Positions 11,256 to 11,855 of a stretch of 12,977 nucleotides of DNA are shown in pieces. The translations under genes and the position numbers were made by a program. The notes beneath the pieces were generated by a model. That model was given only the letters and a program-made list of their open reading frames with translations. It had not been told where the DNA came from and did not search any database. The stretch is from contig JAJZKY010000048.1 of NCBI GenBank assembly GCA_021803885.1, positions 1 to 12,977 on the forward strand, in the 5' to 3' direction. Source of the stretch: Planctomycetota bacterium (lineage in GTDB: Bacteria > Planctomycetota > Phycisphaerae > WQYP01 > JAJZKY01). The number at the start of each line of letters is the position of its first letter. The stretch's first letter is position 1.

Positions 11256-11855
11256 ATGCGCTTCACCGTTCCTTCGTGTTATCGCTCCTGCCGTGCTCCC
11301 GTTCTGGCCGGTCTGGCCGCGCTGACGCTGGCCGCTTCCCTGGCGGCGCAGATGCCGGCCATGGCGCAAACCCAGCTCAAGCCCGGCGACCGCGCCCCCA
11401 ACTTCCGCCTGCTGAGCGACCAATGGAGCCCGGTTTCCCTCGCGCAGTTCCGCGGCAAAGACAACGTGGTGCTGGCGATTTACGTGCTGGCCTTCACGCC
11501 CGGTTGAAAAAGCGAGCTCCAGGGCTATCAGTCTGATAGCGCAAAACTGAAAGCGCGGCATACGGTCGTGCTTGGCATGAGCATGGACTCTCCCGCCGCC
11601 AACGCTGCCTTTGCCAAACAGATCGGGGTCAAATTCCCCCTCCTCAGCGATCCCGATGGCCGCATCGAACGCCGCTACGGGGTGCTCTTGAAAAAAGCCG
11701 ATATCAAGGGCGTGGGCTACGAACTGGCCCGCCGCACCACCTTCGTGATTGATAAAAAAGGTATCATCCGCAACGTGGAAATCAGCAGCACCGCGCTCAA
11801 CCCCAATAATGCCGTGGCCTTTTGCCTGACCATGGCGCATGCAGGAAAGAAGTGA
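11256..11855 (+). CDS. Exported selenocysteine-containing peroxiredoxin (AhpC/TSA family), in-frame TGA at 11505-11507
   Basis: Read through TGA as selenocysteine this is one intact protein of 199 residues. The ATG at 11256 has AGGCGG 7 nt upstream. A signal peptide runs to about residue 37 (cleavage near AMA), so the enzyme is exported. The thioredoxin-fold body starts LKPGDRAPNFRLLSD. The active-site segment reads YVLAFTPG-Sec84-KSELQGYQSD, with Sec exactly where peroxiredoxins carry the peroxidatic Cys (FTPGC). Downstream, VLGMSMDSPAANAAFAKQIG, FPLLSD and the Arg-containing RRTTFVID are intact and in the same frame. It should reduce peroxides. The usual Pro seven residues before the catalytic position is Val here. 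One Cys remains in the mature part (AFCLTM, near the C-terminus). Decoding needs selA, selB, selC and selD elsewhere. The alternative is a pseudogene or a sequencing error at this one base. Confidence 0.88.
11505..11540 (+). promoter_or_regulatory. UGA selenocysteine codon with bacterial SECIS-like hairpin
   Basis: After TGA (11505-11507), GCTATCA (11524-11530) and TGATAGC (11534-11540) form a perfect 7-bp stem with the 3-nt loop GTC (11531-11533). Known bacterial SECIS elements lie just 3' of UGA, within the coding sequence, with a small apical loop about 16-37 nt away and a G among its first two bases. Here the loop begins after 23 nt and starts with G. All criteria are met by eye; folding energy was not computed. 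Confidence 0.8.

Follow-up and report, generated by a model that had tools for sequence, protein, structure and literature searches.

A peroxiredoxin-like gene with a conserved in-frame TGA, probably decoded as selenocysteine, at the peroxidatic position, and its relatives in Acidobacteriota

Results

An in-frame TGA at the peroxidatic position

We analyzed a peroxiredoxin-like gene on contig JAJZKY010000048.1 (12,977 nucleotides, the whole of which we refer to as the window), and we are confident that it codes for an AhpC/TSA protein in which a single in-frame UGA, at the position of the peroxidatic cysteine (Cys), is read as selenocysteine (Sec). The Sec reading is strongly supported by what the sequences offer: the recoded codon itself, a predicted bacterial selenocysteine insertion sequence (SECIS) hairpin behind it, conservation among relatives, and Sec machinery in the relatives' genomes. 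Peroxidase activity of the product is likely, at a lower level of confidence.

The gene appears as two open reading frames (ORFs), the first ending at 11507 and the second beginning at 11568. The first-pass annotation held these to be one frame split by a single TGA, with no other internal stop or frameshift, and translation confirms this: the frame is open except for that TGA up to its terminator, also a TGA (coordinates in Table 1), and reads ...YVLAFTPG-TGA-KSELQGYQSD... around the internal codon. Translated through the TGA, the product scores 111 bits against Pfam AhpC-TSA (gathering 26), spanning profile positions 1-123 of 124. One protein, P0001, served as the query for the protein, Pfam and NCBIfam searches and as the first row of alignment A1; it has a spurious residue at its end, where the terminal TGA was rendered as Sec, and P0123 is the corrected protein.

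A protein homolog search gave 253 matches, 120 of which were listed and underlie the alignment counts. The TGA column of these 120 is occupied by C in 81 rows and by W in 34; single rows have S, G or K, and two are gapped (the query's own C, standing for Sec, is not counted), so the TGA does sit at the catalytic Cys, residue 84, as had been claimed. One NCBI-derived entry of 112 aa (P0033; 227-kb contig, 70% identity) starts four codons behind the Sec position and probably reflects a relative's gene that was called too short.

At the DNA level, a scan of genome contigs found 127 relatives, and locus counts refer to the 80 loci kept; a weak unrelated minus-strand match (L071, 38.5 bits) is excluded from the counts. 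Of the 80 loci, 78 have TGA at the aligned codon and two (L024 and L051) have TGT; with the window included, 79/81 have TGA. Assemblies as distant as about 41-43% identity share this TGA. This recurrence, which the first-pass annotation had proposed looking for, argues against both chance and sequencing error. In the two Cys genes read from genomes, TxxU is also changed to SxxC. A second gene copy is present in 13 loci, always with TGA, at a spacing of 0.5-0.7 kb in 12 and 2.3 kb in one, for a total of 94 locus copies, 92 of them with TGA. The loci with two adjacent Sec peroxiredoxin-like genes are L036, L041, L042, L045, L048, L053, L061, L063, L068, L074, L076, L078 and L079, and several of the second copies lie on long branches of the tree described below.

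The nearest relative, L001, is 96% identical, and 3.2 kb of the window aligns with it at 94.7% nucleotide identity. Across the 115 codons 3′ of the TGA 11 changes between the two are synonymous and 2 nonsynonymous (nonsynonymous rate dN 0.008, synonymous rate dS 0.152), so the segment beyond the apparent stop looks to be under purifying selection; with the recurring TGA, this bears out the earlier argument against decay.

By record title, 75 of the 80 loci are acidobacterial, L067 and L069 name no phylum, and L009 (genome G009), L031 and L059 stand under other phyla, being binned as Eisenbacteria, Betaproteobacteria and Bacillota, respectively. All three fall among acidobacterial rows, L031 and L059 close to them and L009 as a long branch, and are possibly misplaced contigs in their bins. 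In a second survey, an even draw of 199 genomes from the same phylum (Acidobacteriota), 28 matches of at least 137 bits were found in 27 genomes; all 28 contain an in-frame TGA, at the same codon in 9/9 inspected. We set the 137-bit line post hoc, at the gap that separates these matches from the next one (127.9 bits, the ordinary Cys protein L102). The eight weakest of the 28 (137-143 bits) are a probable sister group of the Sec peroxiredoxins, judged by score and not by placement on the tree, and the five of these that were read keep the active-site proline (FFPKAFTxG-TGA; L095-L099, all from Acidobacteriota genomes). Extra TAG or TAA stops, suspected inside the gene in seven of these eight matches and in two stronger ones, were rejected, the extra stop being the gene end in all six of these nine that were read (L095-L098, L100 and L101); four further regions, of the ten retrieved, were of another kind.

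A predicted SECIS hairpin behind the TGA

The published bacterial SECIS model (PMC13188914) has a stem of 4-16 bp, a loop of 3-9 nt with G in the first two loop positions, a distance of 16-37 nt from the UGA, and a minimum free energy of at most -7.5 kcal/mol. The window hairpin lies within these limits (7 bp, loop GTC, 23 nt, and -10.2 kcal/mol for a 28-nt fold). The 92 TGA copies align without gaps directly behind the TGA and, numbering from the first base after it, a stem of bases 19-23 and 27-31 encloses a loop G[G/T]N at 24-26. All 92 copies have G at base 24 and T at base 27, although these are third codon positions; columns 21/29 are compensatory (T/A in 69 copies, C/G in 23), and columns 20/30 are A/T or T/A in all copies but one. 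The outermost apical pair, 19/31, is broken in 25 of 87 rows.

Covariation was assessed on 88 rows (87 distinct), four identical TGA stretches having been removed from the 92. A 9-pair structure has 90.9% paired cells, against 82.1% in shuffles, and double-sided changes affect 60 cells, against 18.0; 0/500 shuffles reach either observed value; less striking among the five shuffle measures are pairs with a double change (29/500) and further pair types (62/500). Because kinship of the sequences inflates this test, we give more weight to two other controls: slid versions of the 9-pair structure are all worse, and 91 of the 92 TGA copies have the loop G on a stem of 4 bp or more, against 3.9% of protein-preserving codon reshuffles (1.3% for the window). 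Both Cys forms have lost the loop-closing pair, and alternative hairpins are possible there (-6.6 and -8.8 kcal/mol). The RNAalifold consensus is weak (-0.91 kcal/mol), its four pairs being the apical ones; the SECIS signal came from comparative pairing, and energy alone gave none.

Sec machinery in related genomes

The search for Sec machinery took in 40 genomes, those of loci L001-L040, among them that of the Cys form L024. Matches over cut-off were found for selA in 36, selB in 35 and selD in 38 of these carrier genomes, and in 1, 2 and 2 of 14 control genomes, respectively. For tRNA-Sec the nominal cut-off was passed in 34/40 carriers, but it was set aside because the controls also match (all 14 at E 0.001, with 5 passing); the line was instead placed at the break between 58.2 and 51.4 bits, a choice made after seeing the data, and 31/40 carriers have a match of at least 58 bits. 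ARAGORN calls all eight best tRNA loci tRNA-SeC (tca). In the 199-genome draw, selA is over cut-off in 26/27 carrier genomes versus 103/172 others (Fisher p = 6.5e-5, only a guide as the genomes are related). G001, the genome of L001, has selA (490.5 bits), selB (301.5 bits) and selD (361.8 bits), and its selD itself contains an in-frame TGA. In G009, selA has no match, and selB has none over cut-off.

Several observations weigh against decoding of this TGA as Sec, or against the chemistry that we attribute to the product. The Sec machinery is known from the genomes of relatives and not from the window's own. The selA, selB and selD genes that the first-pass annotation asked for, and usually tRNA-Sec, are present in those relatives, but the nearest relative's bin lacks a convincing tRNA-Sec (best match 49.6 bits, in a score range that probably belongs to other long-arm tRNAs), as do 8 more of the 40 genomes; a selA match is also absent from one of the 27 carrier genomes of the draw, G180. 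The 28-nt fold reaches -7.5 kcal/mol in 84 of the 92 copies and misses this limit in 8, and a longer 59-nt stretch of the window does not stand out from its shuffles in folding energy (z 0.53). Finally, the classical proline of PxxxT/SxxC is Val77 in the window and is absent from all 94 copies (Val in 80 and Ile in one of the 81 main copies), which makes peroxidase chemistry less certain.

Active site, export and proposed mechanism

The missing proline, and the failure of every NCBIfam peroxidase model to reach its cut-off, would also fit a protein that carries Sec but serves as a selenol-based thiol-disulfide oxidoreductase or sensor outside the cytoplasm. We think this unlikely: the active-site Thr/Ser is kept in all 94 copies (T 92, S 2), the Arg motif is found by a loose pattern in 89/94 copies with R160 invariant in 58 rows, and the fold is nearest to Bcp1, AhpE and other peroxiredoxins. 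A hydrophobic N-terminal segment is present in 79/80 main copies examined by a simple hydropathy scan (L022, with a cut N-terminus, is excluded), and the protein is probably exported. Cys190, which is nearly invariant, lies 106 residues after Sec84, and we propose it as the resolving residue. The second copy lacks this C-terminal Cys in 3 of the 13 two-copy loci (L045, L068 and L079).

For the peroxidase, we envisage that SelB, acting on the hairpin 23 nt behind the UGA, would deliver Sec-tRNA(UCA), so that UGA 11505 would be read as Sec84, and that the protein would then be exported. In reducing H2O2 or organic peroxides to water or alcohol, the Sec84 selenolate would become a selenenic acid; Cys190 would attack this to give a Se-S bridge, which a thiol-redox partner would presumably reduce.

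Other readings of the UGA

With the gene's stop overlapping the start of asnS, translation of asnS could be coupled to translation past the UGA; the UGA might be mostly a real stop, with the hairpin regulating a short product or the coupled asnS, and Sec read-through being minor. This is very unlikely, as asnS lies beside the gene in only 1/80 loci (L001), with at least 1.5 kb of downstream sequence present in 76/80; we take it to be a chance neighbor and not part of the system. Moreover, in comparisons with L002 and L003 the codons behind the TGA show no higher dN than those before it.

The W entries at the Sec column, every one of the 34 coming from JGI, would be expected if UGA were read as Trp, as in a code 4-like reassignment. 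We regard this as still less probable: TGG occurs at the aligned codon in 0/81, the genomes without TGA use TGT, and TGA serves as the terminator in 22/94 copies. The 11 W rows on the tree require 7 changes and are scattered among Sec rows, and the conserved SECIS and the Sec machinery likewise speak against Trp; the JGI residue probably arose when the gene caller applied code 4 to a TGA.

A pseudogene or a sequencing error at the catalytic codon, to which the two ORFs of standard gene calling and the C-terminal piece P0033 might point, is hardly credible given the same TGA in divergent assemblies, a dN/dS of about 0.05 behind it and a covarying hairpin, and we reject it, together with code reassignment.

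Table 1. Features of the selenoprotein locus in the window
Feature	Position	Strand	Details
Selenoprotein coding sequence, complete	11256..11855	+	199 aa, Sec at residue 84, stop TGA 11853-11855; Pfam AhpC-TSA
Probable N-terminal export signal	11256..11369	+	Residues 1-38, hydrophobic core, end ...AMAQ; hydropathy scan, cleavage point inferred
In-frame TGA, read as Sec84, peroxidatic Cys position	11505..11507	+	Translation, homolog alignment, relatives' codons
Bacterial SECIS hairpin	11524..11540	+	7-bp stem 11524-11530/11534-11540, loop GTC 11531-11533; loop start 23 nt behind TGA
Cys190 codon, near-invariant C-terminal Cys, proposed resolving residue	11823..11825	+	Alignment conservation
Upstream c-type cytochrome gene	10860..11240	+	Within ORF 10674-11240, start inferred; 15 nt before peroxiredoxin start
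Downstream asnS (asparagine--tRNA ligase)	11852..12977	+	GTG start overlaps peroxiredoxin stop by 4 nt; runs off window

Gene neighborhood

A search with five window proteins in the 80 loci found, besides the single asnS, the upstream cytochrome in three, the ORF at 10343 in two and the multihaem cytochrome in one; a TonB receptor lies beside the gene in 0/80 loci by direct search with the window protein. The cytochrome homologs are at the same place in L001, L002 and L003, the window's nearest kin, and this clade (about 70% identity) has retained the cytochrome-peroxiredoxin pairing. A first, ORF-based comparison of neighborhoods often picked wrong-strand ORFs and missed the asnS of L001, and it carries little weight. 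In that comparison the flanks of, for example, L010, L011, L018 and L019 show recurring clusters (11 and 9 loci) that by eye resemble cytochrome c oxidase subunits III and I. Such oxidase-like neighbors, with the cytochromes upstream in the window, hint at a link to the respiratory chain. Farther upstream, the window codes for a TonB-dependent receptor with a carboxypeptidase regulatory domain (5929-8511) and a multihaem c-type cytochrome (9056-10267), both by Pfam, and for a 157-aa ORF between the two cytochrome genes (10343-10816) that has no Pfam match and is conserved in L001 and L003.

Exchange of Sec and Cys

We placed the 94 locus copies and 30 hand-picked proteins of the 120 listed on a tree of 124 rows with a midpoint root. 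All but one of the 21 Cys rows form a single clade (support 100/99) within a mixed 37-row group (100/100), and the remaining one, P0011, whose DNA was not seen, stands apart in the same group. For any root outside this group, the tree implies at least one replacement of Sec by Cys, and probably two. The accessible text of a 2006 survey counts five Cys-to-Sec events among peroxiredoxins and no Sec-to-Cys event (PMC1794560); unlike that count, the subfamily appears to be a case of Sec-to-Cys replacement within peroxiredoxins.

Discussion

Sec peroxiredoxins are not new as such: the TxxU type is an experimentally verified family (PMC13188914) and is listed under COG1225 Bcp (PMC9312934), as far as the accessible text of these sources goes. 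The earlier description of this gene as an undescribed selenoprotein therefore holds for the subfamily, for which no NCBIfam model reaches its own cut-off, and not for the family. In the parts available to us, the 2006 survey counts T/SxxU peroxiredoxins together and gives three selenoprotein families in Acidobacteria without naming them (PMC1794560), and a study of one acidobacterium reports three known selenoprotein genes, also not named (PMC12013277). Among the literature matches listed, we found no published description of this acidobacterial subfamily, an absence that counts for little as most subscription journals lay outside the search. What sets the subfamily apart is its probable export, its lack of an NCBIfam model and of the proline, and a near-invariant C-terminal Cys.

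Like the Sec peroxiredoxins (TxxU; COG1225 Bcp / PF00578), including PrxU (NF040737) of Eubacterium acidaminophilum, the window protein has an AhpC/TSA domain with Sec for the peroxidatic Cys in a TxxU motif, in a comparison that did not include the representative WP_011365628.1. It differs from PrxU in its score (47.3 bits versus a cut-off of 270), its probable export, the change of the PxxxTxxU Pro to Val, the Cys 106 residues after Sec, and its occurrence in Acidobacteriota. AhpE of Mycobacterium tuberculosis (1-Cys) and Sulfolobus Bcp1 and Bcp4 are among the closest solved folds and sequences, but their active site has Cys and their Pro is kept in two alignments, one of them with Sulfolobus Bcp4, the C-terminal Cys lying outside the comparison. 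The BCP/PrxQ thiol peroxidases (NF006960, PRK09437) share a TPGC-like active site, and the window protein scores 80 bits against a cut-off of 140. The BCP resolving Cys lies 5 residues after the active site, and the window protein has none there. The peroxiredoxin-like thiol:disulfide oxidoreductase selenoproteins (PF00578, UxxC/UxxU), Prx-SUH (NF045827) and the UxxS AhpC/TSA family are related selenoproteins in the accessible text of PMC13188914, but have other Sec motifs, and Prx-SUH matches at 43 bits versus a cut-off of 298.

Taken broadly, these genes may represent an exported Sec/Cys enzyme family across Acidobacteriota, a phylum abundant in soils, in which Sec would be ancestral and the proline dispensable, with Sec84 and Cys190 forming a distinct catalytic class at the cell envelope, Sec giving way to Cys in one lineage, and members overlooked through truncation or a printed Trp; we offer this wider picture tentatively, as somewhat short of an even chance. 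The finding adds a broad, mis-annotated subfamily of Sec peroxiredoxins, members of which databases often truncate or mis-translate. If the W entries are indeed TGA codons, W at a catalytic Cys position would flag further hidden selenoproteins in metagenome protein sets, and the absent proline would offer a clean test of that residue's role with a selenium nucleophile.
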